Shown here piece by piece: positions 1 through 44,013 of a stretch of 64,000 nt of DNA (within the stretch, counting starts at the first letter, position 1; every line of letters starts with the position of its first letter). This DNA is from Warburgia ugandensis (lineage: Eukaryota; Streptophyta; Magnoliopsida; Canellales; Canellaceae). Position numbers and translations under genes: made by a program. The notes beneath the pieces are model-generated. The model did no database searches. It was not told the origin of the DNA and was given only the letters and a program-made list of their open reading frames with translations. Location: positions 46,398,057 through 46,462,056 of the forward strand of contig CP141137.1 in assembly GCA_035236585.1 (NCBI GenBank), read 5' to 3'.

Positions 1-204
1 CCCGTCGTAGAATGGGGGAGATTCTTTGCAACGGACCTACCGCGGTACCCGGGTGGACAAGAGATGATGATTCTAATATGGGAGAATATTAATGCACTTA
101 ATGATGTAAAAGTAAATAAACAAATTAAGGTTATAGTCTTAGAGACACCCATGGGTCATGTCCACGAGAAAAATGGCACAATGTTTTTGTTAACCATGGC
201 ATGA
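1..204 (+). other. open frame at left edge, unidentified
   Basis: Frame 1 is open from the first base of the window to a stop at 202-204, about 67 codons. It includes the stretch FFATDLPRYPGGQ and then a hydrophilic segment. The composition looks protein-like rather than random, so this may be the end of an exon or of an old transposon gene lying mostly outside the window. I do not recognise the family. The last seven codons fall inside a repeat that recurs at 20647, which weakens the coding reading. Confidence 0.25.
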
Positions 205-349
205 AGTTCCATTATTTTGGGAAGTTGTTCCCTTACTATGTCTCATATAGTATCGTTTTTCTTCAAGAAAAAGAAGATAATGCAATCCTAAAACATCTTC
301 AGGGATTTGATAATCTACTTTGCTTTTCAGTAATGGAACTCCATCACAA
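183..349 (+). repeat. left copy of a ~168-bp tandem repeat
   Basis: This segment begins TGTTTTTGTTAACC and ends near CTCCATCAC. It recurs at 20647-20813 with roughly one mismatch in ten by eye. The CACTA element sits exactly between the two copies, so before the insertion they lay head to tail. Confidence 0.85.
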
Positions 350-352
350 TGT

Positions 353-810
353 CACTACTACACAGGAGGGTTTTAAAGTCAGCATAAAGAAGTCGCTTAT
401 ACGACTGCCGACTTTATAAATATTTTAGAAGTCATTTGAAAATAAACGACTTTAAATATATATGGATACACACACACACACACTTAAGAAGTCGGTTAAT
501 CATAAGCAACTTTAAAAAAACTAGTGCGAGAATGGAATTTTTTGCGGGAAGAGCTTATAAAGTCATTTTTATGAAAATGACTTCAAAAGTTGATAACTTT
601 TAAAGTCGTTTTCGTAAAAACAACTTTAAAAATGTATAACTTTTGAAATCAGTTTAAGTAAGTGACTTGAAAAGTATCACAATAAACTTGGCAAGAATAT
701 TTTATTTAGCAAGAATGGACTTTTAAAGTCATTTATATATAAATGACTTGAAAAATTCATTACTTTTAAAGTCGTTTAGCACTAAACGACTTCTAAAGTC
801 TTCTATGATT
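353..810. repeat. CACTA left terminus and subterminal AAGTC repeats
   Basis: The terminal inverted repeat is followed by repeated inverted motifs of the form AAGTCGTTT...AAACGACTTT, many of them paired as small palindromes (for example around 365-440, 550-660 and 725-800). They match those at 20300-20640 and are probably transposase binding sites by analogy with the Spm subterminal repeats. Confidence 0.75.
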
Positions 811-1544
811 TATAAATAGCTGTCAAAGTACATTTTTTTCTTTATCTTCTTCTTCTTCTCATGGTTTTGGCATGACAACTTCGCCTTTGGACCTTATGCT
901 TCTCTCTTTTTTCCTTTTTCCTTTCCATTTTTATATGTTGCATGTTTGTCTCATGGGAAAAACTATAAGTAAATCACAACTTCTTTTAAATCATCCTAAT
1001 ATTTCTTTTCTTGTTATTAACTTTTTTTTGTTTTTATTTTGTAGATTATGTGGGTTTTTGCACTACATATCATGGGGTTAAAGAGTTTGTTTGATCATCC
1101 TGATTTTGCCAAAATCATATGATTTCATTAAAAATGACAACTGCTCTCTCAAGCCTCACTATTGTAGAAAGGGAGAACAATATGATTTTTGGTTCTCACC
1201 CAAAATTAGGGTTTGATGAAGAATGGTGGTTATAGCATCAACTTTTAGACTATTTTCATGAAAAAGAGTGGTGTCAGCTAAATACTAGGCCAGATTTTGA
1301 TGTAAAAGAGCAGATTTGGTATTTGATCTTGGCTTGACAAGATCTAATAATATGTAACATTTGATGCATATATAAAATTGGATGTAATAAAAAAATAATT
1401 TGATTTCTTTGTTGATGTGTTTGTTTATATATATATATATATATATAATTTATTGTATTGTAAAATCAGTTTCATTGTGTATTTATGTAAATTTGAAATG
1501 TATAAAAGGTAAATAAATATATATTTCATGTAAAAATTTAAAAA
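811..1544. other. AT-rich CACTA interior, no gene seen
   Basis: There is no recognisable coding sequence here. A pyrimidine-rich stretch lies near 838-860 and a (TA)n run near 1427-1447. Short frames in this stretch show no family resemblance. Confidence 0.5.
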
Positions 1545-1835
1545 TTATTAAAGTCGTTTGTATAAAACAACTTTAAAACTCTATACTTTTAAAGTCATTT
1601 TTATGGAAACAACTTTAAAAGTGTTTACTTTTAAAGTCATTTTCAAAAAAATGACTTTAAAACTTAAAACATTTAAAGTCATTTTCATGAAAACAACTTT
1701 AAATGTAGGCACTTTTACAGTCATTTTAATAAAAACGACTTTAAAATGACTTTAAATGTTTGAACTTTTAAAGTCGTTTTTGTTTAAATGACTTTAAATG
1801 TATGAACTTTTAAAGTCATTTTTTTGGAAACAACT
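1545..1835. repeat. array of palindromic AAAGTC-(N)-GACTTT units
   Basis: At least six consecutive ~50-60-bp units each hold TTTAAAGTCRTTTT facing AAACRACTTTAAA, so each unit can fold on itself. This is the same motif as at the CACTA ends but 1.2-1.5 kb inside the element. A frame can be read through the array only because the repeat period is regular. It is not a gene. Confidence 0.7.
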
Positions 1836-1860
1836 TCAATTGTACTTCAGTTTTAAGAGG

Positions 1861-2262
1861 CTAATAGTGGCAGATGATATTTATTACAAGGTTATAAGAG
1901 AGATTTGGGTCATGGATTATACCTTCAGAACTATGATTGTGTTTAAGTGCGATGGGATAGAACACAATAGCATCAAAACTTATACCCTTAGATTGACATT
2001 GGTTGACCTTGATAGGATCAGCTATAAAAATGATCAATTTATTTTGGCATCTCAAGTAAAACAAGTATTTTACGTACAAGGTGAACATGACAAGAGATAG
2101 TAAACAGTTTTATTGCCCTATCCAAAGGATTTTTATGATGAAAACGATCTAGGAGACATTGAAATAAATTACCCTTCTGTTACCAAAACAATCCCATCAA
2201 TCGAAGCAATACTTGGTGAGAATGAGGATTATGTGCGTGACAATGGTGAGGAAGGTGCTTAG
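1861..2262 (+). pseudogene. CACTA transposase C-terminal remnant (DUF4216-like)
   Basis: The translation YYKVIREIWVMDYTFRTMIV, then FKCDG, LRLTLVDLDRI, FILASQVKQVFYV and, in a second frame, LLPYPKDFYDENDLGDIEIN follows the usual order of the DUF4216 domain found in plant En/Spm (TNP2-type) transposon proteins. The two blocks lie in different frames: the first ends in a stop at 2098-2100, and the second runs from about 2106 to a stop at 2260-2262. The catalytic TNP2 part is missing upstream, where only subterminal repeats are found. The remnant is therefore a deleted C-terminal piece and independently supports the CACTA assignment made from the ends. The match is from memory of the family, not from a search. 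Confidence 0.72.
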
Positions 2263-3580
2263 GTTTGAAAACAATATATATATATATATATATTGGGGTA
2301 CATGGAATATATATATATATATTAGTCGGTTGTAATATATATAATTTCATGTTTATAATTTTTAGCTATGCTTTTGTCATGAGCTATATGGAATATTGAT
2401 AGTGAGCTATGTGTGTGTGTGTGTGCGCGCATGCGCGTATAAAAAGAATGCATGAATCAATGTTCACTATCATAGAAAAGTTGTTTCATGATGTGTTACT
2501 TGTTAAATATTGTGAAGTACTAACATAAAAAAGTGTATATATTTTGAATAAAAAATTATAAAAAAAAGTATAAAATGATGTATACCTTTACTTTAAAGGT
2601 TAAGAGTTTTAAAGTCGTTTTTTTTTAAATGACTTTAAAAGTATACACACACATCACAATTAATTATTCATCTTCTTTTTTTTGCTTAATGTTCTTTTAT
2701 TATAGCAGTTCTTGTACTTCTTTGGTTATCACATATTTTTATTTCTTTAGGAGTCTTTCTACAATATTTTGTGACATAAGTAAACTTTGGAAGCTTAGTG
2801 TCAATAAGTACATATATATATATATATTCATTTAAAATTAAGTATATAAAACCCTAACCCTAACCCTAACCCTATGCCCTGAACCTTAATCCCAAACCCT
2901 GAACCCTGAATCTTGAATCTTGAACTCAAACCCTAACCCTAACCCTAAACCCTAATTTTATATTTATAATTTTAATTAGCTCTTTTGTCATAAGCTATAT
3001 AATGGATTGATAGCTAGCTATAGCTATATGTGCGTACAAAGAATATATGCATGAACCTATGTTGATTGTAAAAGTGTACACTTTTTAAGTATATACATAA
3101 AATAATAATTTAGAAAAGTTTGACTTTTGTGAATTTAGTATCAAGAAAACTTTACTATAAGAACCACGCTCTGTCTCTCACACACACATGCATATAGCTT
3201 ATGAAATGGACAAGGAAATTTAAGCCAACACACCCATATTCCTACCTCATAATTAATTTACCATCTTATCTTGCTTAATGTTCTTTTATTAGTACAGTTT
3301 TTATAATTCTTTGGTTATTACATATTTTTAGTTCTTAATTATGGTTATCACAGTATTTTGTGATGCAAGTGAACTTTGGAAGCTTATAGTGTCAATCAAA
3401 TATGTATATTTTATTTAAAATTAATTAATTATTATATATGAAGTACTAACATAAAAGATGTATATATTTTAAATAAAAAATTATAAAAAAAAAGTATATA
3501 CTTTTAAAGTCTTTTTTTTTTTTTTTAAAGTCTACACTTTTAAAGTCATTTTATATCTAAACGACTTCTTTATGCACCCT
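2263..3580. repeat. duplicated AT-rich segments with microsatellites
   Basis: Several blocks occur twice. About 2340-2480 resembles 2960-3080 (a GCTATGCTTTTGTCATGAGC-like block). About 2664-2815 resembles 3250-3415 (TTGCTTAATGTTCTTTTATT and TTTGGAAGCTTA). About 2513-2630 resembles 3440-3540 (GAAGTACTAACATAAAA). The order differs between the two sets, so this is a rearranged duplication. (TA)n, (GT)n and further AAGTC motifs (2610-2640, 3505-3570) are interspersed. No gene is seen. Confidence 0.6.
2849..2955 (+). repeat. interstitial telomere-like repeat
   Basis: Runs of CCCTAAC and CCCTAAA with degenerate variants (CCCTGAA, CTTGAAT) fill about 105 bp. The plant telomere unit is CCCTAAA. This copy is short, mixed and internal to the CACTA element. 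Confidence 0.8.
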
Positions 3581-4164
3581 TATTTAAACAAAAATAGACT
3601 TTCCACAATGCCCGACTGACACAGAGGAAAATCAAGGGAGAAGAAGAAGAACAAGGAGAGGAGAAGAGGGAGAATTCCAATGGTCAGAGGAGAAAATGGT
3701 GGTACATAGGGGGGAACTGGGTTCAAGCGAGGGGGGTGGTCGGCGGGGTGGATGAGAAACTAGGTGTTCGAGGAGCGGGGGAAAATCCCCTTGTTTTGTG
3801 GGTATCCTCTTTTTCTATCATCTCAGAAGATCCTACGAAGGGTGTATTTTAAACATAATTTTCTCTTCTTCTTCTTTTTTGTTTTAAAACTAATTTTAGC
3901 TTAGTAACTTCAATTCCATAACTGTGCTATCTCTTCTTCACATTTTAATTTTGCGAATATCCTTATTTAGAAATCAGTTTTTGGCTTTGTTCCTGTTCTC
4001 CATTTTCTGCATTTTGTTTGACTTCTAGAACTACTTATTTAGATGTTAAGTGCAAATGAGTTGCTTGCATAGATAAGATTCTTTCTCGAGTTCCTTTCTA
4101 CTATTCTTCTCTTTGACCTTGAAGCTTGAGGTGTATATTTCTGTTGATTGATATATAGGAATAT
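3581..4164. other. CACTA interior with a purine-rich segment, no gene identified
   Basis: Positions 3620-3790 are unusually G- and A-rich (repeated GAAGAAG, GGAGAAG, GGGGGG) compared with the AT-rich neighbourhood, and look like captured 5' UTR or exon DNA. GGTGTATTTT near 3840 could be an old splice donor. This may be the start of the acquired subtilase region, but no protein match supports that. Confidence 0.35.
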
Positions 4165-4286
4165 CAAGGCGTGGAATCAGCCTCTTGCAAAAATGCAAGG
4201 TAAGGCTGCCTACTTTAGGCCATTGTGGCCCGCCCCTTCCCCGGACCCCGCATAGGCGGGAGCTTTGTGCACCGGGGCTGCCCTTT
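4165..4286 (+). mobile_element. Au SINE, 5'-truncated
   Basis: The segment holds the 3' two-thirds of the plant Au SINE: AACAGCCTCTTGCA-like, GGTAAGGCTGC, GTGGCCCGCCCCTTCC and GTGCACCGGGGCTGCCCTTT. It is flanked by an exact 18-bp duplication, ATTGATATATAGGAATAT, at 4147-4164 and 4287-4304. The tRNA-like head is missing. A perfect duplication suggests a fairly recent insertion compared with the other SINEs here. Confidence 0.9.
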
Positions 4287-4304
4287 ATTGATATATAGGA
4301 ATAT

Positions 4305-5030
4305 TTCAATATCTAATCGACGTTATGGTTCATATCTGGTTCGGCTTTAAGATTCACTAGTAAGGATGGTATTGAGAGGGGAGAACTATCTCAAGCTATA
4401 TAGTTACCATTACTTGATTAATGGGCTTGCAGTTCTCGTCACCCCTCTGTAGGTAGTTGTTCCTTAGATTTGGAATTGCAGCTTCATCTTTGTTAAAATT
4501 TTAATTTGATTGGTTTTGATGCATCATGTCTATTACCATTGGGTCTTGTCACTTCGAAGATGGCTTTGGGCTTTTATGATAAAAAAATTTAAGAGCTTTC
4601 TATAGTTATTCCAGCAGAACCGAGACAGTCCATTTCATTGTTGCTTTGTTGAATTTGTTATGTTTTGTCTTTCTTCTGTAGCTTCCAAGTCTTTTACTTT
4701 TTCTCCATTGTTTAAATATTTTGGTCATTTCTTTCTAAAATCAGTCTATTTACCACTCCAAAAGGAAAAATGAAAAGAAAACAAGTGAAGAGAGTATGCA
4801 TCTTAATGTATCTAATGGTGTTCTGTGAGTAGTTGTTGATATTTACTGTGTCTTCTATGTTTCTGTATGTATTTGCTTCATTAGTTTTCATATGGTCTTT
4901 AACTTTTTTTCACTAAAATCTGATTAAGTCTCATTCCTTTCTTGGCATCGTTTATAGCTGTTCATTTTAATTTTTCAACACGTAGTCCTACTCTGATTTT
5001 GTGATCTTTTCTTGTTGGTGTATTTTGAAG
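4305..5030. other. non-coding, probably captured subtilase intron
   Basis: This is T-rich sequence without a recognisable exon. It ends at TTTTGAAG, a plausible splice acceptor, immediately before the first subtilase-like exon. Confidence 0.4.
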
Positions 5031-7799
<2,769 letters not shown>

Positions 7800-7993
7800 G
7801 TGTGGTTCTATTGTAACATTAGTGCTACTTATCCTGCTAACTTCCTTACATGATACGCTGAACATGCTTAAATTTTAATCACAAACTTGTACATGTTTTC
7901 ATACTGGACGATTCCAAGGTTTGGTTAGGAGATCCTATTAATTATTCTATCATATTTTCATACTTGTACATGTTTTGACTGGGACATAGATTA

Positions 7994-8174
7994 AAAGGGA
8001 AGCCCGGTGCATGAAGCTCCCACATATGCATGGTATGGGGAAGGGGCATACCACAGAGGGTCTAAAGCATGTAGCCTTACCTTGCATTTTTGCAAGAGGC
8101 TGTTTCCATGGCTCGAACCAGTGACCTCCAGGTCACATAGCAAGAACTTAACCATTGCACCAAGGCTCCCCTTC
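7994..8174 (-). mobile_element. Au SINE, full length
   Basis: On the minus strand it begins GGGGAGCCTTGGTGCAATGG (A-box region) and contains the B-box-like GGTTCGAGCC, CAGCCTCTTGCAAAAATGCA, a CCCCTTCCCC block and GTGCACC-like CATGCACCGGG, then ends in CCCTTTT. Its ~181 bp match the usual Au SINE length. The 18-bp flanks 7976-7993 and 8175-8192 (TGACTGGGACATAGATTA and TGACTAGGACATGGATTA) differ at two sites. Confidence 0.92.
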
Positions 8175-8192
8175 TGACTAGGACATGGATTA

Positions 8193-8828
8193 TGCAGTAC
8201 ATATTTTGGGTGTACTTTTTATGTTTTATAGATATATCAGGGAAAATTTGACCATATGGTCTTCTTTATTGAAAATTGATCATCTCATTCTCCTACCTAT
8301 GCAATTGGTCCATGCGGTCTTCTTTAGTGAAAATCGATCTTGGTGTGCCAGCAATGATACATCAATAGAAGACAGCCAAATTGCCATTTCTCTTTAGTGC
8401 CACTATTCTAATAATAGTTGCAACGTTCCATAGTTGTATTGATCACTTTGGGAAGATTCAATCACTACTTACAATTTTGAAAGATGAGTATACTGCCATT
8501 TCCTTGTATATGTTCTTATTCATGGCTTGCTATCTTCTATATGGAGATTGAAGTTATTAGGTGTATATGATGTTTGGTTTTTCATGTTTATAAAGATTGT
8601 TTGAAGTATTAGGTGCATAAAATGTTTGTTATTCATTGTATACATAGGTGGTAATGTATATAAAAAATTAAGATGTGGATGCAATGTAGTGGTTATTAGT
8701 TTTCCATATTTGTGGAGATTGAAGTATTTTTATACATACATGGTATTGTGTATTAAAAAGTGATGAACATTGTTTGTGAAGAGATTTTTAATGTTTATAA
8801 ACATTGTTTGAATATCAAATGTTTGTTA
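8193..8828. repeat. CACTA interior with ~210-bp tandem repeat and Harbinger target site
   Basis: No further subtilase exon is visible. ATGTTTATAAAGATTGTTTG...AAATGTTTG at about 8584 is repeated at about 8791 as ATGTTTATAAACATTGTTTG...AAATGTTTG. The second copy is cut by the Harbinger element and resumes at 20251 with TTATTCATTGTATACATG, matching TTATTCATTGTATACATA of the uncut copy at 8627. Confidence 0.7.
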
Positions 8829-8829
8829 A

Positions 8830-9076
8830 GGGGTTTATTTAACGGCATATGTATGGCATTTCTGAGATATCATGGCATATCTCAAATGTGCACCTTATTT
8901 AATCGAGATATCTTTGGCATATCTAAGATATCAAGTTTGTTTAACCACGATATCTTTGGCATATCTAAGATATCTAGTTTATTTAACTGAGGTATCTTCA
9001 ACATATGTGAGATATCAGGTTTATTTAACCCCGATATCTTTCGCATATCTGAAATATCAGGTTTATTTAGCTTTTG
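8830..9076. repeat. Harbinger left subterminal GATATC array
   Basis: About five ~46-bp units follow the pattern GATATCTTTGGCATATCTAA, GATATC, GGTTTATTTAAC. Each unit holds near-palindromic GATATC/GATATCT and GGCATATCT motifs. The same motifs recur in inverse form at 19960-20220. Confidence 0.85.
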
Positions 9077-10793
9077 TCATGTTGATATGTTTGGTGTTAT
9101 TTCAAATATGTCAAATCTTGTTTCAAGTGTAAATTTTGTTCCTCTTTTAGAGAGAGAAAAATCAAATAAAAACAACATTTTTTGTAGAGAGAGGAAAAAG
9201 GGCGTCTTCTTCATCCCTTGAAGGAAGGCCCGAAGAGGAGTAGGAAGCAGGTTCCATTCACCGTTGTTCGGTTCCAAGTCCAGACAAAAGAAATATTTCT
9301 CTGGCACCTTATCCAAAGTCTCGACAAGCCGGGTGGAAGACCCGTTCACCACCATCGGATCTAAGTCTCGACAAGCAATGGGAAAAAAGTTTGCAGGCAC
9401 CGGATCTAGCCAGATGTACTCACGTTTGCCAAAAAAACATTCCAAAAGCAGCTCTCATTTATTGTGGAATGATTTGTATTCTATTATTGTTGGTTTGCGA
9501 TTTGTTATGCATTTCACCATTTTTGTTTGGATTGAAGTGTAAAACCACTAGAAATGATGCTGATTAGAGTCTTTCAGCTTACTTACCGTGTTCCTCTCCC
9601 TGCCTATTCTGATGTCAATAAATTTGCCTCTTTTGGACTTTTCGTGATCTTGTAGGCTTACTAGTCAAGAAATATATTCATCACTGATTGATTTTTAAGC
9701 CGTCTCCATGTATAAGTCACCCAAAAATACTGAATCTGGTATATGTAATTCTAGCATTCTATGATATAAACTTGGAAACAGAAAGCATAAATCTATTGGA
9801 GAAAGCCAAATACAATCCACAATTGGCCAATTTTAGAAGTGCTTCATTCCAACAGGATAAAGGCAACAAAACCAATTAGAAGAAGCAAAATGAAATTGAA
9901 GGCTACTGTCTCACGGGAGTTCTCGAATGACCTTAGACATGTAACATGTGTATTGGTATGTCAGTCTATCTACATCCTCTAAGATCAAAAGAAAATGAAA
10001 TGAGAAAAAGGAGAAACAATTAGAGCTATTGTATACAATAGATACAAAATAATCCTCTCTATGTTACTTATTAGCATCAATTAGTTCTCAATTATTTAGA
10101 TATGCAGAGGAATCTAACTTGAGTAATTAAGATAGATTACTTACAAGAGGCACTTAAGAATTGTTATATACCTGTTAGTCATAAGCGTATTTGAAAAAGG
10201 AACCCCTTCCACATTGAGCATCCAACAACTTGTTCTCCTTGCTTGAAGAGAGGGACAAGAAAAATATACATGCAACAAGATGAATGGGGAATAAAAGAAA
10301 CAAATCATTCATATGTTGTATATGCAGAGAATTTTTAAATAGTAGAAGACTGACTATGTCATTTTATTGATCCCACAAAAAACAGGTATGCAATCTAATT
10401 CAAATAGATGGGTCTGCCCCATATATCAATAAGCAAAGCAAAACAAGAAAAAACAGAGACAAACAAAGCACCAACCCGACATAGCAAATTGTCCAAGATG
10501 GATAAAACACAAAAATTCCAAAAGATCATAATATCATAAGATTGCTTCCGAGGCCTTTATATATTGTAAAAGCCCCTACTTTAGCCTCCTTTTGTGCTCT
10601 CTTTCTTTGCTTTTTCTCATTTGGGGACTGGCTTTGTACTATTAACTTGTTTTGTGGCTGGATTTTTTCCTTGATTTGCACAAGTACGAGTTGCATCAAT
10701 CTGTCCATGTTGTGAAAATGTCATTCCTCATTTTTCAATCTTGTATATGTCAATTAATTTAGGTTCAGAATCATCAAAATATTCAGCTCTTTG
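9077..10793. other. Harbinger interior, no gene recognised
   Basis: A 122-codon open frame lies on the minus strand (9445 to 9077), but its translation resembles no family I know and it overlaps a GC-richer patch with repeated GTCTCGACAAGC and GGATCTA words. The rest is AT-rich without coding signs. Confidence 0.4.
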
Positions 10794-12184
10794 TGTAATA
10801 GACCGAGGGTCGCATCCAGCAATGATATTGTCCGCTTTGAGCTTTTGGCCCTCACGGTTTTGGTCTTCCCTTAAGAAAAAAGGCCTTGTTGCAAGGGAAG
10901 TCCTCAGCACTCTTATCAACAGCCTAGTTTCCCCTCCCCAAGCGATGTGGGACTAACTCTTAGTACCTCCTGCTTTGTCCCTCAGCCTATCATGGGCTAC
11001 CTCAACCTATCTTGGGGCATCCCCTCAAGGCATCTTGGCCCCCCCTCAAGGCATCTTGGCCCACCCTCAAGGCATCTTGGCGACTACAACGGTTCACCTT
11101 TTCCCCCGTAGGGACATGCGTCCCTGCGTGTTTCCATCCGAGAGCTCATGTGCAGCTAGCCCGCCCAATTTCCCCTCCCTAGGCAATGTGGGACTAACTC
11201 TCAGTACCTCCCGCTTCGTTCCTCAGCTTATCTTGGGCTACCTCAACCTATCTTGGGGCATCCCCCTCAAGGCATCTTGGCCCACCCTCAAGGCATCTTA
11301 GCAGCTATAACAATTCACTTTCTGTAACAGACCGAGGGCCCCATCCAGCAATGATATTGTCTGCTTTGGGCTTTTGGCTCGCACGATTTTGTTCTTCCCT
11401 TACAGGAAAAGGCCTCGTTGCAAGGGAAGTCCTCAGCACTCTTATCAACAACCCAGTTTCCCCTCCCCAAGTGATGTGGGACTAACTCTCAATACCACCT
11501 CGCCCTTGTTCCCTCAGACTATCTTGGGCCTTAGCCTCAGACTGTCAATTCAGGCATTGGCCAAGATGGCTTGAGGGGGATGCCTCAAGATAGTTTGAGG
11601 TAGCCCAAGATAGTCTAAGGGAACGAGGGTGGGGAGGTACTGAGAGTTAGTCCCACATCGCCTGGGGAGGGCCAAGATGCCTTGAGAGGAATGCCTCAAG
11701 ATAGGTTGAGGTAGCCCAATATAGGCTGAGGGACAAAGCGGGAGGTATTGAGAGTTAGTCCCACATCACCTAGGGAGGGAAAATTGGGCTGTTGATAAGA
11801 GTGATGAGGACTTCCCTTTCAATGAGGCCTTTTCCCATAAGGGAAGACCAAAATTGTGCGGGCCAAAAGGCAAAAGCGGACAATATTGTTGCTGGATGAG
11901 GCCCTCGGTCTGTTATAGAAGGTAAACCGTTGTAGTCGCCAAGATGCCTTGAGGGGGATGCCCCAAGATAGGTTGAGGTAGCCCAAGATAAGCCGAGGGA
12001 CGAAGCAGGAGGTACTGAGAGTTAGTCCCATGTCGCCTGGGGAGGGTAAACTAGGTTGTTGATAAGAGTGCTGAGGACTTCCCTTGCAACGAGGCCTTTT
12101 CCCGTAAGGGAAGACCAAAATCGTGCGGGCCAAAAGCCCAAAGCAGACAATATCGTTGCTGGATGGGGCCCTCGATTTGTTACA
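10794..12184. mobile_element. compound inverted LTR-like element (TGTAACAGACCGAGGG family)
   Basis: Four copies of a short unit that starts TGTAACAGACCGAGGGCCCC and contains GATGTGGGACTAACTC and AGTCCTCAGCACTCTTAT are present. Two are on the plus strand (from about 10794 and 11323) and two on the minus strand (ending about 11920 and 12184). They are separated by CCTCAAGGCATCTTGG repeats. The whole block begins TGTAATAG and ends TTGTTACA, and is flanked by CTTTG on both sides (10789-10793 and 12185-12189), a 5-bp target duplication typical of LTR elements. It has no coding capacity and looks like an old TRIM/LTR-type fossil arranged head to head. Confidence 0.7.
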
Positions 12185-13060
12185 CTTTGTTAATGGGGTA
12201 TTTGCATACTGGGCTCGTATGATAGTCTTACTTCAAGTATGGATTCCCTCATGCCCCATGCTTTAAAACTATGTAATTTGTAAAACTGTCTAGCTGCTCA
12301 TGGTTGTTATGGCTTGGGGCCTAAGGTGAATATTGTGGTTCTGACTTGACTATTGTGGCATTATCAATATAACATGTTTCTATTACCACCTCAAATAAGT
12401 GGGGACTTTGTGCACGGGCTCCTTTTTTATGTATGTATGTATGTATGTATGTATGTATGTATGTATGTATGTATGTATGTATGTATGTATGTATGTATGT
12501 ATGCATACACACACAATAAGATTTTAACTTTTTGCAACTAATATGCAACTATATTTTATGTAGTCCATTTTGATTACCTTTGCAAAAAACTTAACTACCA
12601 TGTTCCATTTAAAACTTTGGTTACAAAAATATATTACCTAAGCATGTATTTCAGGAAATTAAGTCAGAAAATCAGTAAGCCATAAAAATCATAAGAACTG
12701 TAAAAAATATGTATTCCTTTACTGTTTGTTGTCTTGCTTCTAGAGAGCTTTTTACTTGTTGGAAGGTGTCTGCATGTTGTAGTCGACAATTTTGCACTTC
12801 ACACAGTTCCTAACTACCCGCTTTATCCAATTTTGGCTACACCCAGTAATGCCTACTTTCGTCAAGTATAGAAATGTGTCTTCTCTTTTGTCAACTCACC
12901 CCCTTCAGTTACCTTTCCAAAAAGGTGAAAAAAGAAAAAATTCATCTGTTTTAGTTGATTACATTATTCAGGTTACTTATACCTAATATCATACTAGACA
13001 GTTTTGTGTTCATGTTTCCTCTATATAGATGTAGTTAAGTTGAAACCCAGCTTTTTGCAG
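12185..13060. other. no gene seen; ends at a splice-acceptor-like site
   Basis: AT-rich sequence with a SINE stub and microsatellite (12400-12504). A CTTTTTGCAG acceptor lies just before 13061. Confidence 0.45.
12400..12504 (+). repeat. Au SINE 3' stub and (TATG)n microsatellite
   Basis: TGGGGACTTTGTGCACGGGC at about 12400 matches the last ~28 bp of the Au SINE. It is followed by T6 and about 19 TATG units, as if the SINE tail had seeded the microsatellite. The His-Thr-Tyr-Ile frame through it is an artefact. Confidence 0.6.
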
Positions 13061-13165
13061 ATGTTGCAAAAGCTGGTTTTTACATTGACCCTAATAAGCT
13101 TGCATCTATTGTCCATGGGCATGATCTCAAGAGCTTCAATTGGCATACACAGGAAAGAAGTAGAG
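13061..13165 (+). pseudogene. exon fragment resembling a P-type Ca2+-ATPase N-terminus
   Basis: A ~105-bp block between a TTTTTGCAG acceptor and a GAGGTAG donor-like site encodes VAKAGFYIDPNKLASIVHGH followed by DLKSFNWH. Plant autoinhibited Ca2+-ATPases (ACA type) have a segment of this form, AGF.I.P..LASIV..HD.K.L, just before their first transmembrane helix. No other exon of such a gene is visible nearby. It is an isolated captured exon in the Harbinger element. The family call rests on a short motif and could be wrong. Confidence 0.45.
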
Positions 13166-13333
13166 GTAGTTGTCATCCATACATTGACACTTCTAAACTG
13201 ACCAACTATACAAAATTACTAGAAGTACAATCGTCGCAAGCTATTTTTCTTTCATATATATTATTTTGATGCATCCTCCTATTGTTATGATCTATTAGAG
13301 ACATTTTTCAAATGCCGTGCAAAAGAAAAGAGA

Positions 13334-14390
13334 GAATTCCTGTGACACATAGTGTGACACCTCGGGTTTTCTAAAATCCTTTTCCAATACATATATTAAT
13401 AGCAAAAATTTTATTATTACAAAGTAGGCAGGATCCCTAAAATAAAACTCAAATATTTAGAAATTTTTTGCAATGTTAAGGAAAACCCCGAGGGTCATTT
13501 GCACCCGAAACTACAATGCTAAACCAAATCACTTTCAAACACTCTGAGCATGCTCAAATACAAAACCACAAGAAATTATGCAACTGCAAAGAGACGATGA
13601 TAATAAAAGTCCCAAAGCTCTAAGGTCCATCCAAAGTCACCACATCATCCATATGTAAGCATATACACACTATACAGTGGTATGGGTCTAATATATCAAA
13701 ATAGACAAATATCTAGATAGAGTACCAAAAGTATGATACCAATCTAAAGACATACACTACTATGTCCCCGAATACAAAAAGTATAGGGTCCTCAAGTCCT
13801 TGTCCAAATCTGCACTATTCCACTTGCTTCTCTCTCTGACTGTCGTGCTCCAAGTCTGAGGCATTGCTTTGCAATGCCTCAACAAGCTATGCTTGTGTAG
13901 GTGATTTACATTCAATATAAAATGATAAGAAATAACATGGTACAAAAACCTCAGAGTCATACAATGAAGAATATACCAGATCCATGATATAAATAAGGCA
14001 ACATAAGTCATGGTGTCAAAACATGCAAAATCCAAAAAGATACGTAGATACAAGTAAGCCATAACCACGTGAGTCTATATCTAAAGAACAACATAAACTG
14101 CATATCAAAAGCATCAAAACATCATACATGGTCAAGCCCTATGAGTGTCTCAGGTACACTCACAGCAACACGGGGTCAACTCTCAATACCATCCGCTTTC
14201 ACCCACAACAGGGCACTCAGGCACTCACAGAAAGGTGCATTCTAGTTCCGCTTTCATCTTTCACCCACACGAGCACTCAGGCACTCACGGAAAGATGCAA
14301 TTCACGCCCACTTTCACCCTTTCACCCACAAGGTTATTGACAACAATGAAGGATCTATTTAGGTCCACTTAGACCATCAGCACCAACTTC
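13334..14390 (-). mobile_element. Gypsy-type LTR remnant
   Basis: Read on the minus strand, the sequence ends AGAAAACCCGAGGTGTCACA, like the ...AAACCCGGGTCGTCACA end of the long LTR at 27672-32420. It also holds the phrases typical of such LTRs (for example GTACACTGAG-like and CTCACAGC repeats on the plus strand at 14145-14330). The other end is truncated and no target duplication is seen. Old, broken fossil. Confidence 0.4.
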
Positions 14391-14580
14391 CACAAAGTTC
14401 TTTGTACAATATTGCAGTTGCATGGTCTCATTATGGCTCCTCATGCAATGGAGGACCACCCTGAGATTTCAAACAATTATCAGAGAGACAATCATTTTAT
14501 GGTAATTGTATCTCTCTTTTGTAATCTTCAATATAATAGATTGGGACCTTAACATTCAATATGTCACATACTGTTGATAG

Positions 14581-15330
14581 GGTTGCATTGGAGCTGCAGA
14601 TGGGACATTGATATCTGTTACAGTTTTTGCTGCGGGTCCTCGCAATTTGTCAAAGTGGCATACTAGGAAAGGGTTCCTCGTACAGAATGTTCTTACATGC
14701 TGCAATTTTGACATGCAGTTCACTTATGTGCTTGCTGGCTTTGAGGGATCTGCACATGACTCTGTCGTGTTGAAAGTGGCTCTTACAAGAGGAGGAGCAC
14801 GGTTGACAATTCTTGACGGTAAATCCATTATGTGTTTACATTTGTAAGTTCTACCTTGATGCCTTGTTCCTTAATTGCTCATGCATTTATGATACAAGGA
14901 ATTACTTCTTGGTCGACGAGGGTTATGCAAATAGGCAACAATTTCTTGCCCCTTATCGAAAGACTAGGTGTCATCTAAAGAAGTTAGCCCAAGGAATGCC
15001 ACAACCACAAATTGCGGGGGAGTTATTCAACCTTCGATACGCGTAGCTGAGGAACGTAGTAGAAAGAACATTTAGTGTTCTAAAGGCCAAATTTCCCATT
15101 CTCAAGACTGCGCCTCCCTTTCCTCTTAGGACACGGTTGATCTTGTCAAAGCATTATGTGCACTACACAATTTTATGCGACAAGAACCCATTGATGATAC
15201 ATGGCTGGCAGAGAAGATGGGAGACAATCTTGATTCTCAAAGTGACAATGATAATGACAGATGCAACTTAAGTAGTTATTCAGAGGATGAAATTATCACC
15301 TATGTAAACTTCGAAAGGGTGAATGCCGGT
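14581..15330 (+). pseudogene. PIF/Harbinger DDE transposase (DDE_Tnp_4), broken
   Basis: The translated blocks are GCIGAADGTLISV (first catalytic Asp in ADGT), WHTRKGFLVQNVLTCCNFDM, FTYVLAGFEGSAHDSVVLK (second Asp), NYFLVDEGYANRQQFLAPYR, LRNVVERTFSVLKAKFPIL (catalytic Glu in VER) and KALCALHNFMRQEPIDDTWL. This is the usual order of the plant HARBI1/ALP1-like nuclease. Exon-like blocks run from 14581 to about 14818 and from about 14899 onward, with an AT-rich intron between. A TAG interrupts the ...NLRYA-LRNVVER segment at 15045-15047, and the frame shifts again before KALCALHNF. An upstream piece (about 14400-14500, PHAMEDHPEISNNYQRD) may be the preceding exon. The N-terminal half is missing or unrecognisable. 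It is the diagnostic gene of the surrounding 8829-20250 element. Confidence 0.85.
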
Positions 15331-15665
15331 ATGCAAGTGTTGCATCAGGATGAGCCAAAGATGCAGGGTTTACAAACAGTCATGATGAGACTGACAATTC
15401 ACAGAGCACACAATTACACCCTACTTAGGAGTCCTCTTGTTAAGATGTTGCTGCTTGGCACGCTTCCATTGCACACAAACTGTGGTTTGATTATGTACAT
15501 AGAAATAACCAGTAGATGTTCGTTCATGTCACAGAAAATGTTGTATTGAAACTCTTATTTAAGGATGTATTACTTGATTGCTTGATTGTTGTTACTTGAA
15601 TGCTTATATTAATTGTATATACTTCTTATACACAAATTATATGCACATGGTATCTTCTTACAGGA

Positions 15666-16058
15666 ATGGAGCAAAACCCCCACCCCTTATGTGCATGCGG
15701 CCAAGGGCCTATGCTATTGCTCCAAGTATAGTCGAAGCCTAATTGTGGGAAGTGGTACCTACGTTGTCCTACTAATGAACAACATACAAGATGGTTTATC
15801 TAGCTTGATGAGTACATGCCAGTTGAGCTACCACCCTTACCACCAATTGGGACGACAATTCGCCGAAGGGAACAGTGTGATGGGGGATTCGATCAAAATG
15901 TGGTGTTGAAGCCCACTATTGCATTACAAGATGGAGGATGCGACCGTGTCTCCCTTGTATTTAATGCCCCCTCTTCATCATTCAATGCAGTAGCATATGT
16001 CCTTGGTGGACTTCTACTTGTATTTATTGTTCTTATGATTGCAACTATGTTTATATAA
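15666..16058 (+). pseudogene. GRF-type zinc-finger protein with C-terminal membrane helix
   Basis: The ATG at 15666 opens a 130-codon reading frame that ends in a TAA at 16056-16058. It encodes CACG near residues 11-14, then KPNCGKWYLRCP and RWF-LDE, the pattern of a GRF zinc finger (usual form CxCG...NPGRxFYxCP...C.FFxWxDE). A hydrophobic stretch, VLGGLLLVFIVLMIATMFI, lies at the C-terminus. Small plant GRF proteins often pair one finger with one terminal membrane segment. Two in-frame TAG codons interrupt the finger region, and the second half of the frame is otherwise open. It lies in the Harbinger element just after its transposase, so it is a captured copy or an old accessory gene. The function of this protein group is unclear. 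Confidence 0.6.
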
Positions 16059-17205
16059 TATGTATCTTAAAAACTACATTGACCTTGTTTGTTATGCCAC
16101 TTTCACTGGAGCTAATGCAATGAAGATTTTTCATTCTCAACTATATTGGCTGATGTAGCTTCTCTAAATTTTGATTTTGATGATTTATTTACATGAATAT
16201 GCTTTTCTCTTTAATCGTGGAAAGAATAAAGTCCCAGTTTTATTTATTCTATGTTTTCTGTTTTAATTATGTTCATGAGCAATAATATAATCTTTCTATA
16301 ACCAGTTTATTGTTCAACTAACCTATCTGATTTATGTGTAACTAGCTTAAGACATGGATCTAATAGTAAAGAGAGGAATTGGTTAGTATCACATTTGTTT
16401 TTTATTTATAGGGGTAATGGGAGTTTTGATTGTTTTTGTTGAGTGGTTGAATTTTTGGGTACATCCATTGAAGATGAACTTGTTCATATTAATTGATGTA
16501 AAAGGTACAGTAATACATTCAAAGTTATTTTAATCCTCTCCAAAATCATCTCTAACCTTGCCCTTCATGTGCAAGGTGGTTAGAAGCAGTTAATCAAAGC
16601 ATTGAACGTGGGAAAGTTATTGGTTTTAGCTCAATTTGCCATGATGCTAGTAATTGAGTGTTTTCTTACACATGCCTATTTGGTTCTTCTTCTTGTAGAT
16701 TGCTCTCAGCTTGTTGGAACTGAAATTAATGTATGCAACAATTACAAACCAAGGAGGCAAGTGATGGAGCTCAGTGAGGTTGATGGAGATGAAGACAGAT
16801 TGGGATCAGTATTGGTATTGTGACATTGCAGAAAGCATGAAAATTACATGTTGAATTGCAAAGATATCATAAAGTAACTCTTGTTTTTTATATTTTGTTT
16901 ATCAACATCATGATTCTACTGATTGAAGAGAAAATGGTTTTATAAACCCACTAGCTAAAATATGTAGATATTGGATTGGACTATTCTGAGAAGATAAGGA
17001 CCTGAGGATGATATAGATAGGTCACTTGTCTTTGCCAAGGGATACACTTTGGATAATGTGGCTTTTCCTTTTCTCCTCTTCTTATGTTTCTAAGTTAAAT
17101 GGTGGTGACCTTGTTGGTGCATTGCAAAGTAATGTTTGTGAACATATAGTTGTCTTTTTTATTAATGTATTTGTTAATCCATTTAAAAAGTTTGTTGCTT
17201 GAATC
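16059..17205. other. no recognisable gene; one possible exon near 16700
   Basis: The stretch is AT-rich. At 16690-16830, after TTCTTCTTGTAG (acceptor-like), one frame reads IALSLLELKLMYATITNQGG, which looks like coding sequence, but I do not recognise it. Confidence 0.35.
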
Positions 17206-17510
17206 AACATGGTGAAACTAGTAGTAGTTTCCTCTAAGTTTGTAGCGTTTGCAAACCATGTGTATAAGGATGCACTTGTTTGGGAGCATTTGTTAACTAG
17301 TCTAGTTCCAATGTTTGCTGCACAACGCAGAAGAGGAGCATGTTTATTTAGACTCAACCAACACCTAATCCTTCATCTCTCATGTTATATCCTGGAAAGC
17401 CTGTTATGGAAGTTGGAACTGCTGACTTTCCAAATGCACACTCAGCAATGAATTCAGCTCTAGCCAAAGGAGTGTATGCATTGATGGTGTGGTTGGCTTG
17501 GTCTTGCAAT
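17206..17510 (+). pseudogene. mitochondrial NifU-like protein (NFU4/NFU5 type), captured fragment
   Basis: One frame gives HLLTSLVPMFAAQRRRG-like sequence at 17284-17340 and the next frame gives TQPTPNPSSLMLYPGKPVME, VGTADFPNAHSAMNSALAKG and VYAL. This is the junction between the targeting presequence and the N-terminal NFU domain of plant mitochondrial NFU4/NFU5, which deliver Fe-S clusters. The fragment is broken by a TAG just before TQPTP (the usual residue there gives MFIQTQ), a frame change near 17341, and a one-base loss after VYAL, where IDGV would be expected. The CxxC-bearing C-terminal NFU domain is absent. It is embedded in the Harbinger element. Confidence 0.8.
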
Positions 17511-18340
17511 TTTCATTTAATTTCCTGCTTAGTGATACAAATCTAAGGAAAATCTGAGGTATTGCTTCAAGGAGATTCATAAAATGAATAGAAATATCGA
17601 AAGAAAATGTCGCAAAATTGTTGTATGTGATATGACTGATATCTGAATTATTGCAAAATCTCTAGTTCAAATGGGAGAATACGAAGATAACTATCATGTT
17701 CCAAGTGCTTCACACTCTTTAAATAAGTAAAATGCCTTTCCTAGCATATCAAACATTTCCACTATATTTTGAGTATACGAGTCTCATACTTGCTCTTTTA
17801 GTTGCTCTATTCATACACAATATCTTAACCATGTCCAACATCTATCAAAACACTGCACCATACTCTGTCCCTGTATCCTTGTACACACCAACATTTGTAT
17901 CACTTTGGCTATAATAGATCACTTTCCATTAATAAGAAGGGAAATGATAAACTTTGGCCAAAATTCTCAACCATTGGATTGTGCTACTCCTAGCTTTTGT
18001 TGTCCTGAGGTGTAAATCCTCAAGTATATTTGACTTTAAGTCGAGATGTACTTCTGCTATTTATTACAGTGATGGTTCACTTGATCCAGAGGCACCATCT
18101 ATTCAACAATTTCTGGTGTAACTTGAAACAATTATTTTTGTTCTTTTAGCCTGAATATATTTGTGAGACATGCAAATTTACTTATCCTTAGTAGGACAAG
18201 TCATTTGCTAACTTGGATTCTCAAGAATCCAACAAAATTGAAACTACTAGACAACCAAGTATCATTATTTCCAATTTGTCAATGCTATAGAGCCATTTTC
18301 ACTAACACGTTGTATATACTGAATCTTTGTTGCAGACAGC
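17511..18340. other. no gene recognised
   Basis: AT-rich, probably captured intron or spacer. SDGSLDPEAPSIQQF can be read near 18070-18115, but it is too short to assign. Confidence 0.4.
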
Positions 18341-18665
18341 TCAATCATATTGGCTGAATTTGGATCCTTCTTGAAAGGACACTGGTCCTCCCATGCACCG
18401 CTTCTTCCACCCTGACGATAACCAAACTACTGACCCAGACGACCGAGTCTGGGGTGGTCATGAGTGTACATATTCAATTGTTACAAGCTTTGTAGACAAA
18501 GGAAGAATAAGGGAGCATTATGTCAGGATAAGTAGATGGCCTTGGATGACCGTCTCAAGGAATGAGGACTAGAGCTGGGAGCTGGCAAGTCACTTATATC
18601 ACTACAGAAGTGTGCCTAACCCTGAGAAGGAGGATGACACTGGACCATTATTTTTGGTCTATTAA
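18341..18665 (+). pseudogene. unrecognised host-like coding fragment
   Basis: One frame reads TGPPMHRFFHPDDNQTTDPD, DRVWGGHECTYSIVTSFVDK, GRIREHYVRISRWPWMTVSR, SWELASHLYHYRSVPNPEKE and DDTGPLFLVY, with a stop before KDTGPP, one in place of a residue before SWEL, and one at the end. The density of Trp, His, Pro and Tyr and the lack of repeats argue for a real, once-conserved protein. I cannot name the family. The DNA is more GC-rich than its surroundings. It is the last of several gene-like fragments in the Harbinger element. Confidence 0.5.
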
Positions 18666-19166
18666 GTATCTGATGCTGGTAACTCCTTGTAGCTTTTAGG
18701 TTAGGGAATAGCGAGATTTAATTAGGGGGTTTATGCTTGATGTTGTTTTTATAGTTCTATTGTAAGAACATCAACTATAGTAGTGCATATATTTGTAGCT
18801 AGTTTGACGAGTTCTTTTTAACTAAATGTGGGGGGCAAGCTCAAAGCTTTAGTTGATTGATTGTTTTATAAGAAGCTTGTATATGATGTTCTGGTATTGC
18901 TTACAAGCAGTTATCCTGCTGAATCATTGTGCATGGATGAAATGGGCAGCATATGGTAGGAGGCCTTGGATCATCGACTGCGAAAGGCCTGCTGATCCAA
19001 TTGTGCGTGCCATCACTAGGTCCTATCGTCTCTTTAGGGGTGTTTGTGTTTTTATCCCTGTAAAACTACAAATTGATTACCTTGGCTAATGCAACAAGTT
19101 CTTCATCAGTGATGACCCTTTGGCCTTCGGCTCATGAATTTCTTGGTTGTGGATTGTAAGCAATGT
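18666..19166. other. no gene recognised
   Basis: A frame at 18939-19087 reads WAAYGRRPWIIDCERPADPI and may be a further piece of captured coding DNA, but it resembles nothing I know. Confidence 0.35.
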
Positions 19167-19348
19167 GAAGGAGAGCCTTGGCACAATGGAAGAGTTGTTG
19201 TCATGTGACCTTGAGGTCATGGGTTCAAGGCGTGGGAACAGCCTCTTGCAAAATGCAAGGTAAAGCTGTTTACTATTGACCCTTGTGGTCCGCCCCTTCT
19301 TCGGACTCCCCATACTTAGGAGCTTCATGCACTAGAACTGCTCGTTTA
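19167..19348 (+). mobile_element. Au SINE, full length
   Basis: It begins GAAGGAGAGCCTTGGCACAA (A box) and contains GGTTCAAGGC (B-box region), AACAGCCTCTTGCAAAATGC and GTGGTCCGCCCCTTC. The flanks TGGATTGTAAGCAATGT (19150-19166) and TGGATTGCAAGTAATGT (19349-19365) are a 17-bp target duplication with two differences. It inserted into the Harbinger element. Confidence 0.92.
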
Positions 19349-19929
19349 TGGATTGCAAGTAATGTCCTATTATTTTTGCCACAGCCCCTCCAACAATGAG
19401 GTTCAGATTTGATACATGGTTCATCCATACACGATGATGGACCAACAGATTTATTTGTTAAGGGCATCCTCACCTGTGCACACTCATATTCTCTTAAAGC
19501 AAAGGATACTCATTCGGTGCTATGGAATCTTGGCAGGTTAATGTATTCTCTATGGTGACATGTCATACAAGGATTTCAATTCAAAACATGTAGCTAGTAA
19601 GGAGGAGGATCCAAACTCTTCTTTCATGGGACGTGCAGGGAATAATCTAGCATTTAGGAAGCTACTTCTTGAGCTTCTATTACTGATAATCACACACCAA
19701 AATAGCATATGCATTGATTAATCACCAACATAGATCAACTTTTTACTCGTCTTTCTTTCTAGCAATAAAAAACAATCATACAAAGTAAATCAGAATGCAC
19801 AATGATGCATGAATCAAAAGCACATCTTACAGCTACTCATCATACATTTGTGGCCTTCAAGGATTCAAAACAAATAATGGGGCTAGTATTCAGTGATACA
19901 ATCCTTGGGCTTTGGGAATATCATGGCAT
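19349..19929. other. no gene recognised
   Basis: Harbinger interior without coding signs or clear repeats. Confidence 0.45.
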
Positions 19930-20250
19930 AGATGAATGGCTTCAGATGAATGGCCCAGATCATTGATGAATATCAAGGTGTTAGTTGATATTATGGCATA
20001 TGTCAGAAATATAGCTTATTTAACTGTGATATCTAAGAGGCATATGTTTCTCATATCTGAGGCATATCTCAGATATCGTCAAAAATATCATCAAAGATAT
20101 CACAGAACAAATATCACATATCTCAGATATCATACAAGATATCATAGAACATATGACACATATCTTAGATATCACACAAGTTATCATGGGAGATATCGCA
20201 AGAGATGTGCCAACAATATGCCAAACATGTGCTATTAAATAAACCCCCCC
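19930..20250. repeat. Harbinger right subterminal GATATC array
   Basis: GATATC, AGATATC and GGCATAT motifs recur every 20-40 bp (for example AGATATCACAGAACAAATAT), ending in the TTAAATAAACCCCCCC terminus. It mirrors the left array at 8830-9076. Confidence 0.85.
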
Positions 20251-20253
20251 TTA

Positions 20254-20646
20254 TTCATTGTATACATGAGGTGGAGCAAACAAAAAAATTTGAAAAAATA
20301 AAAATACTTTAAAAGTTCAAACTTTTAAAGTCATTTTTTTACAAAACGACTTTAAAAGTTGACACTTAAAAAGATTAAAAAATTTAAAGTCTTTTTTTTA
20401 TATAAAAAATGACTTTAAAAGTCATGATATATTGTTTAAATATTTTTACTTTCGAAGTCACTTATATAAAAACGACTTCTAAAATCACAAACTTTTGAAG
20501 TTGCTTACAAAAACAACTTTAAAAGTCACAAACATTTAAAGTCATTTAAAAACAACTTTAACAGTTGATGACTTTCCAAATCGCTTCATAAGCAGCGACT
20601 TGTATTATCACTTTTTACAGACTTTAAAAGCCCCTATGTAGTAGTG
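20254..20646. repeat. CACTA right subterminal repeats and terminus
   Basis: Inverted AAGTC..GACTT motifs recur every 30-60 bp from about 20300, and the segment ends CCCCTATGTAGTAGTG. It is the counterpart of 353-810. Confidence 0.8.
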
Positions 20647-20813
20647 TGTTTTTGTTAACCTTGGCATGAAGTTCCATTATTTTGGGAAGTTGTTCCCCTA
20701 TTGTGTCTCATATAGTATCATTTTTATTCAAGAAAAAGAAGAGAATGCAGCCCTAAAATATATTCAGGGAATCGATAGTCTATGTTGCTTTCAATAATGG
20801 AACTCCATCATTC
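20647..20813 (+). repeat. right copy of the ~168-bp tandem repeat
   Basis: Near-copy of 183-349, from TGTTTTTGTTAACC to CTCCATCATTC. It marks the other side of the CACTA insertion. Confidence 0.85.
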
Positions 20814-37883: not shown

Positions 37884-38418
37884 TATCACGGACTTGGTTT
37901 GCAAGACCCGTGACCAAGGCCCGTAGGCTCTAAGGGATGTCTACTCAACTCATGGATGTGGCTTAAAGGACTTAGGCTCATGTTCCTAGATCTGTGGTGC
38001 AGGGCTTGGTTCCAAAAGGCCTGGTTTCTGGAGAAATCCTTGTAAATATCTAGATCGAGTCTAGAATACTCTAGGATTATAATAGAGTAGTCTAGAAAGA
38101 GGAGGGCTCCAGAATATGTAGTGACACTTGGAATAATCCTAACCATCCATTGAGGAGGTGGATGGGGGAGAGCAAATATAAATAGGGTGTTGCTCCTTAT
38201 TTGTAACTAGCTCAGCTCAAATTACTCAATTGAGTTTAAGGGATAATAGGTTCTCTTTAAATAAGTCTCATTTTTGAGTTCCTCACATTGCTTAAGTGGG
38301 TGAGTAAGTGTAGCCCTAGCAAGTGAAAGTGGGAGATAAAGGTTGACTTGTGATTTGCAAAAGAGTTGTGCATAAGTGTTGCACGAGTTTAGCATAGGTG
38401 AAACTGCAACCTGTGACA
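37884..38418 (+). repeat. array LTR 1
   Basis: Outer left LTR, about 535 bp. Its first bases are TATCACGGAC where the others have TGTCATGGAC. It ends TGTGACA just before the primer site at 38421. Confidence 0.8.
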
Positions 38419-40683: not shown

Positions 40684-41191
40684 TGTCATGGACTTGCTTT
40701 GCAAGACCCATGACCAAGGCCTGCAGGCTCTAAGGGAGGTTTGCTCAACTCATGGACGTGGCTTGAATGACTTAGGCACATGTTTCTAGATCTGTGGCGC
40801 AAGGCCTAATTCTAGAAGGCTTGGTTTTTGGAGAAATCCTTTTAAAATGGTAGAGTAGTCTAGGAGTAGGAGGGTTCTAGAATATGTAGTGACACTTGGA
40901 ATAATCTTGACCATCTTTTGAGGAGGTGGATGGGGGAGAGTAAGTATAAATAGGGTGTAGCTCCTCATTTGTAATTAGCTCAGCTCAAATTACTCAATTG
41001 AGTTCATGTAAGGGATATGAGGTTCTCTTTGAGTAAGTCTCATTTTTGAGTTGCTCTAATTGCTTTAGTGGGTGAGTGAGTGTAGCTCTAGCAAGTGAGA
41101 GTGGGAGTTAAAGGTTGACTTTTGCTTTGCAAAGGAGTTGCGCACAAGTGCTGCACGGGTTTAGCATTGGTGAAACTGCGACCTCGTGACA
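40684..41191 (+). repeat. array LTR 2
   Basis: About 508 bp, from TGTCATGGACTTGCTTTGCA to CCTCGTGACA. It lies between internal regions 1 and 2. Slightly shorter than the others. Confidence 0.85.
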
Positions 41192-43478: not shown

Positions 43479-44013
43479 TGTCATGGACTTGCTTTGCAAG
43501 ACCCATGACCAAGGCTCGCAGGCTCTAAGGGAGGTTTGCTCAACTCATAAATATGGCCTAAAGAACTTAGGCTCGTGTTCTTGGATCTGTGATGCAAGGC
43601 CTAGTTTTTAGAGAAATCCTTGTAATATCTAGATCTTTTGAAGCAGTCTATGATGCTCTAGGAGATTGGTGGATTCGTCTAGAAAGAGTAGGAGGGTTCC
43701 AGAATATGTAGTGACACTTGGAATAATCCTGACCATCCATTGAGGAGGTAGATGGGAGAGAACAAGTATAAATAGGCTGTAGCTTGTCATTTGTAATTAG
43801 CTTAGCTCAGATTACTCAATTGAGTTCAAGTAAGGGATAACATATTCTCTTTGCGTAAGTCTCATTTCTGGGTTCCTCTCATTGCTTTAGTGGGTGAGTG
43901 AGTGTAGCCCTAACAAGTGAGAGTGGGAGTTAAAGGCTGACTTGCGCTTTGCAAAGGAGTTGTACACAAGTGCTGCACAGGTTTAACGTAGGTGAAATTG
44001 CGACCTCGTGACA
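43479..44013 (+). repeat. array LTR 3
   Basis: About 535 bp, TGTCATGGACTTGC to CCTCGTGACA. Confidence 0.85.

Follow-up and report, generated by a model that had tools for sequence, protein, structure and literature searches.

The DNA analysed here (the window: 64,000 nucleotides of Warburgia ugandensis, C12:46398057-46462056, from a genome of 1.12 Gb in 14 contigs) carries, at positions 353-20646, a single non-autonomous copy of a large CACTA (En/Spm-type) transposon family. Within this copy lie a piece of a subtilase gene and, further right, a PIF/Harbinger element that holds gene cargo of its own (Table 1). Comparison with other loci of the same genome makes it very probable that a CACTA family copy captured the subtilase piece once, that the loaded element then moved, and that the Harbinger entered the window copy later. 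This order relates capture to Harbinger entry; the timing of the Harbinger relative to the arrival of the CACTA at its present site lies outside it. Loci elsewhere in the genome are given by contig, and all other positions are those of the window.

The CACTA element and its family

The terminal sequences of the element (CACTACTACA at 353-362 and TGTAGTAGTG at 20637-20646) are in inverted orientation and are bounded by TGT on both sides, the 3-bp target duplication of the CACTA superfamily, which here adjoins a longer direct repeat. Counts of AAAGTC/GACTTT are highest near both termini, as in subterminal arrays. The left end (353-1060, 708 bases) was found in 39 further copies at 80-84% and at least 632 bits among the best 40 of 3338 candidates, with CACTA exactly at the boundary in 24 of 30 left-end loci (window counted); the right-end query was scored at the best 40 of 1863 candidates. 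Pairing of the 39 left-end and 39 right-end places, window excluded, gave five pairs on one strand and within 30 kb (match starts 10.9-20.7 kb apart), against a chance expectation of 0.02. A chance origin of the ends at 353 and 20646 was rejected, since they recur across a large family and form pairs. A sequence-only reading of this stretch had recognised the CACTA ends, the TGT duplication, the AAGTC arrays and a DUF4216-like remnant, all of which were borne out. It had also named ends unique to this locus, or ends belonging to unrelated elements, as grounds for giving it up, and had suggested a search for copies with the same ends and arrays; that search, reported above, found that many loci share the ends and that the ends pair within single elements.

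A typical, unloaded member of the family (C12:27871822-27884042) aligns colinearly with the window at 353-1660, 1854-2661, 2726-3718, 8540-8828 and 20251-20646. It encodes Transposase_21, DUF4218 and DUF4216 on the plus strand, which makes the family tnp2-type; the scan covered the plus-strand frames of the typical member's sequence L065 and two plus-strand frames of part of L006. These frames, which cover part of the member, showed no TAD, and the minus strand of L065 showed no domain. Where the window copy holds the subtilase piece, the typical member has ~4.7 kb of interior, and the window copy lacks the transposase region, DUF4216 being the only domain found in it (Pfam, three plus-strand frames of 353-8832). 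With no working transposase, a host gene piece inside and a donor locus elsewhere, the window copy is a Pack-TYPE element. The CACTA body also contains, at 2852-2955, a telomere-like CCCTAA/CCCTGAA tract, of which the typical member has a shorter version.

The captured subtilase segment

The subtilase was missed by whole-frame Pfam scans and revealed by short frames. With phmmer these matched a PDB chain named Protease (7eox; E 2.2e-17), a subtilisin-like protease (7e-9) and cucumisin (5.5e-7), and two Pfam matches to Peptidase_S8 (E 0.0021 and 0.00072) both fell below the gathering score. Sequence matching 5037-7850 was found at four genome loci (all four first-look candidates scored), namely the window itself, C12:9.40 Mb (88-93%), C10:28.26 Mb (89-90%) and C11:60.03 Mb (78-85%). 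Homology between C12:9.40 Mb and the window is confined to 3782-8545 (5.7 kb compared), and the long frames at C12:9.40 Mb extend beyond the captured part and include GTSMAAPHVAG, which we take to be the catalytic-serine motif of subtilases. C11:60.03 Mb is homologous to C12:9.40 Mb over nearly the entire stretch read; both therefore resemble gene loci, and C12:9.40 Mb resembles the descendant of the donor. This donor-like locus and the phmmer matches uphold the earlier claim that the CACTA took up part of a subtilase gene. Since introns are retained in the captured piece, DNA was captured rather than spliced RNA.

The capture borders were placed at 3782 (left) and 8540-8545 (right). Donor and CACTA share ~3-4 bases (around TAT) at the right border and ~1 base at the left, and no CACTA ends were seen at the cargo borders. 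Two repeats resembling short interspersed elements (SINEs), presumably of the Au type, lie in the captured segment. The one at 4165-4286 is absent from both gene-like loci and therefore arrived after capture (the C10 copy is deleted in this region), and the one at 8040-8174 is found in the window, C10 and C12:9.40 Mb and therefore entered along with the gene.

A second loaded copy

The locus at C10:28.26 Mb is a second CACTA copy with the same subtilase piece and without the Harbinger. It is damaged, its leftmost homology lying at about window position 2692. At the score used, no match was found between its flanks and those of the window, so it is not a plain duplication of the window locus. 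For tree building, window positions 4290-8300 were aligned with the three other loci (4206 columns), and gapped columns (leaving 3525) and then badly aligned stretches (leaving 3375) were removed. Over the 3375 aligned sites, identity to the window was 92.1% for C12:9.40 Mb, 90.1% for C10 and 84.9% for C11. The resulting tree was ((window, C10), (C12:9.40, C11)) with a bootstrap of 100; informative sites uniting the window with C10, C12:9.40 Mb and C11 numbered 36, 17 and 9, respectively (62, 30 and 10 in the unfiltered alignment). The return to CACTA sequence occurs at an identical point in the window and C10 copies (GGAGATTGAAG, near 8543). Taken together, the tree and the junctions point to a single capture, after which the loaded element moved.

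The Harbinger element and its insertion site

The inner element has ends GGGGTTTATTTAA and is flanked by TTA, and a sister copy on C6 is likewise flanked by TTA, in keeping with the TWA 3-bp duplication and short inverted ends of PIF/Harbinger elements. Its left end has many genome matches (best 40 of 1317 scored). The insertion site was read in right-end rows L035-L063, window excluded, of which L061 and L051 are one copy and L055 was unreadable at the site. It was uninterrupted and without the Harbinger in 28 of 29 rows (27 of 28 distinct copies), sequence like that at 8540-8828 continuing directly into right-end sequence, and TTA was unchanged in 24 of the 28 readable rows. The C10 copy with the subtilase piece (L036) is among these 28 rows; L037 has a small gap directly past the site. 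Among the right-end matches listed, window aside, none starts before query position 15 (20250); many start at 16-18 (20251-20253) and others further in.

Cargo and repeats within the Harbinger

The firmest cargo of the Harbinger is a segment of an NFU gene, which is 94% identical to C4:58614100-58615173, a genic locus that holds a matching NifU-type frame, and 79% to C10:71752089-71753163. Five other Harbinger copies have at least part of this segment with a left-end match nearby (C6:63.78, C1:0.60, C8:67.70, C2:17.5 and C14:30.01 Mb); that at C2:17.5 Mb is spread over 30 kb with one piece inverted. The C6 sister, ~14.1 kb by coordinates, is bordered by TTA on either side within unrelated flank, and the Harbinger was therefore loaded and mobile earlier than, or independently of, its insertion into the CACTA. 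Its NFU segment with a donor elsewhere and its cargo common to mobile copies are those of a Pack-TYPE element. Strict Pack elements lack transposase sequence, and transposase remnants are present here, so it is a Harbinger with gene cargo. The description of this insertion as an 11.4-kb Harbinger was confirmed by its transposase domain (Pfam, selected frames), its ends and its duplications. Its description as a complete transposon holds for both ends and the duplications and fails for the transposase, which is broken into several frames. That it holds several host fragments, as the sequence-only reading had proposed, is partly confirmed: the NFU segment stands, 12885-13189 is insert-like and a candidate captured fragment, and 17957-19150 is a segment that recurs at several loci.

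No donor of 12885-13189 was found among 40 scored candidates, and a frame at 13039-13170 that suggested the start of a plant calcium ATPase received no support from Pfam, NCBIfam or PDB searches, so that this naming was rejected. The high-copy repeat at 13353-14333 starts with TGTGACACCTCGGG and has a mostly fixed left edge (31 of 35 places start at query 1156-1168, among the best 40 of 3916). The frame at 18332-19086 matched no family in Pfam or in the PDB search. Pfam matches to EVI2A (E 0.0039) and DUF4500 (E 0.024) were below cut-offs and were discarded as chance. At 10789-12185 the Harbinger contains a GC-rich cluster in which a unit of at most ~230 bp is repeated in direct and inverted orientation, the arms being 86-92% complementary.

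Target site and flanks

Besides the left flank itself, positions 1-352 were found at two genome places, the right flank (165 bases at 89%) and C11:9.92 Mb (68%); all three first-look candidates were scored. At the paralogous C11:9.92 Mb locus the repeat is single and there is no insert. Homology to the left flank there starts at window position 108 and extends to the end of the repeat, and homology to the right flank starts with the repeat and continues beyond it. The insertion is therefore genuine, and the doubling of the repeat took place on C12. If doubling preceded insertion, the CACTA lies 8 bases inside the second repeat unit. It is doubtful that the CACTA insertion itself made the ~165-bp repeat (by aberrant insertion, or by repair with re-replication) instead of landing by chance 8 bp into an older tandem duplication; if it did, the repeat would be an unusually long datable footprint. 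The 11% divergence of the flanking repeats is near the ~10% that separates the loaded copies of the window and C10.

No Pfam match was found in the portions of the CACTA flanks that were scanned. Outside the CACTA, 38000-51000 has strong GC skew and raised GC and may be a long retroelement. The pattern CACTACTACAGAAAA occurs at three genome places.

Table 1. Features of the CACTA element, its cargo and its target site (window coordinates; strand as annotated)
Position	Strand	Feature	Match or basis
182-346	+	Left copy of ~165-bp flanking direct repeat	89% to 20647-20810
350-352	.	TGT target duplication, left	
353-1660	+	Left CACTA terminus with its subterminal AAGTC array and the first part of the body	84% to C12:27871822 member
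1660-1854	+	Gap site; ~3.4 kb extra in typical member, transposase region missing here	Colinearity
1854-3781	+	CACTA body, colinear with typical member	
~1915-2091	+	DUF4216 remnant	Pfam E 6.4e-8, above cut-off
3782-8545	+	Captured subtilase gene segment, introns included	88-93% to donor-like locus C12:9.40 Mb
4165-4286	+	SINE-like insert within captured segment, flanked by direct repeats of 17-18 bp (ATTGATATATAGGAATAT)	Missing at C12:9.40 and C11:60.03
8040-8174	-	SINE-like repeat shared with donor-like gene	Columns filled: C10 135/135, C12:9.40 131/135, C11 62/135
8540-8828	+	CACTA body restarting past captured segment	Present in 28/29 right-end loci, mostly 85-93%
8826-8828	.	TTA target duplication, left of Harbinger	
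8829/8830-20250	+	PIF/Harbinger element, ~11.42 kb	A at 8829 ambiguous
12885-13189	+	~305-bp segment, candidate captured fragment	In some Harbinger relatives, cleanly absent in others
13353-14333	+	~1-kb high-copy repeat nested in Harbinger	35 further places, 84-88% (best 40 of 3916)
14581-15180	+	Harbinger-type transposase DDE_Tnp_4, broken into several frames	Pfam E 1.5e-5 and 2.5e-8
16885-17953	+	Captured NFU (NifU N-terminal) gene segment	Nfu_N Pfam E 2.5e-7, above cut-off
17957-19150	+	Multi-locus segment	89-91% at four loci starting at this base, without NFU part
19167-19334	+	Third SINE-like repeat, within Harbinger	Common to C6 sister
20251-20253	.	TTA target duplication, right of Harbinger	
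20251-20646	+	CACTA right subterminal array and terminus	At least 39 further places
20647-20649	.	TGT target duplication, right	
20647-20810	+	Right copy of ~165-bp flanking direct repeat	

Order of events and alternative explanations

In the proposed course of events, a break inside the CACTA would have been repaired through template switching, with sequence copied from the subtilase locus, a mechanism suggested because introns were kept, the junctions share few bases and the cargo borders lack CACTA ends. The loaded CACTA would then have spread to at least two copies, and the 11.42-kb Harbinger would have landed in a TTA of the window copy after capture. Both the SINE-like insert at 4165 and the repeat within the Harbinger are younger than their hosts. 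The loaded CACTA would be passenger DNA, moved by transposase from other copies, and the whole composite is probably without function. Capture before Harbinger entry, also the order given by the sequence-only reading, is supported by the C10 copy, which has the subtilase piece and no Harbinger, damaged at its ends though it is; a copy of this kind is what that reading had named as support for its order.

Several observations weigh against this account. The C10 right-end match ends ~12 bases before the terminus and those last bases are unrecognisable, no left end of that copy was found in the 5.4 kb read past its last homology, and it has deletions of its own and a left capture border unlike that of the window. 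Some sites, 17 after filtering and 30 before, put the window with the donor-like gene. Right-end rows were fetched for 29 of the 39 places, TTA is altered in four of the 28 readable rows, and a C10 site from which a Harbinger had been precisely excised would look empty. Break repair as the means of capture is something we infer from the borders.

If the window and C10 copies had each acquired the subtilase piece in a separate event from one gene, their differing left borders (donor-locus position 383 versus 699) and the 17 sites uniting the window with the donor-like gene would be accounted for; yet the tree unites the two copies with a bootstrap of 100, both resume the CACTA at the same point, and other gaps in C10 show that deletions occurred there, so that separate captures are very unlikely. 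Harbinger-type elements can excise without trace, and the Harbinger could on that ground have been present in the ancestral loaded CACTA and been cleanly lost from C10. Against such a loss, none of the 28 readable rows, loaded or not, has the Harbinger, and among the matches listed none but the window extends past a single base on the Harbinger side, which makes it highly improbable. The heavily rearranged interior might suggest that 353 and 20646 are the ends of two different elements and the span between them a patchwork. Such a patchwork can practically be dismissed, as colinearity with a family member extends from the left terminus to the right one, the TGT duplications and terminal inverted repeats match, the ends pair in five other elements and a paralogous locus lacks the whole insert.

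As for how the gene piece was captured, excerpts of PMC8903248 and PMC13317346 set out a Pack-CACTA model in which two neighbouring CACTA insertions that enclose a gene are fused, and PMC13317346, as excerpted, adds that other mechanisms may exist. For the window this route seems unlikely: the cargo borders show no CACTA ends, ~4.7 kb of family interior was replaced as a block, and the inner arrays at 1550-1660, 2590 and 3490-3570 lie within stretches colinear with the unloaded member (1660-1845 falls between aligned stretches, and the argument does not extend to it). Single capture, movement of the loaded CACTA and later Harbinger entry thus remains the very probable sequence of events.

Relation to known elements

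Each part of the composite belongs to a known kind, Pack-CACTA or Pack-PIF/Harbinger, and no new kind of system is present. The comparisons that follow are with excerpts of the cited papers. Pack-TYPE elements are known for the main plant superfamilies with inverted ends (PMC8903248). Like the Pack-CACTA elements of Arabidopsis, rice and maize described there, the window element has CACTA ends, has lost its transposase, and contains host gene DNA as cargo common to copies; it differs in that a 4.7-kb intron-bearing piece replaces a defined interior, two loaded copies were found and a second loaded element is inserted. In grapevine, CACTA and PIF elements (Cactavine and Pifvine-3) hold transduplicated sequence, the PIF cargo comprising exons and introns common to several copies, with TAA/TTA duplications (PMC2528002); in the window, by contrast, one element lies inside the other and their order was tested by empty sites. 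The Chenopodium CACTA (TAD/Transposase_21/DUF4218/DUF4216; PMC8978399) resembles the typical member here in Transposase_21, DUF4218 and DUF4216, whereas TAD went undetected in the frames scanned and the window copy keeps DUF4216 alone (plus-strand frames of 353-8832). Among the titles listed by literature searches, none names one loaded transposon within another, which is no claim that such a case is unpublished.

The locus is a well-resolved stratigraphy of a donor-like gene, a single capture, loaded copies and the later insertion of another loaded element, for which comparison loci survive in one genome. At such loci the cargo borders can be compared with the donor as well as with an unloaded member, which allows models of gene uptake by DNA transposons to be told apart.

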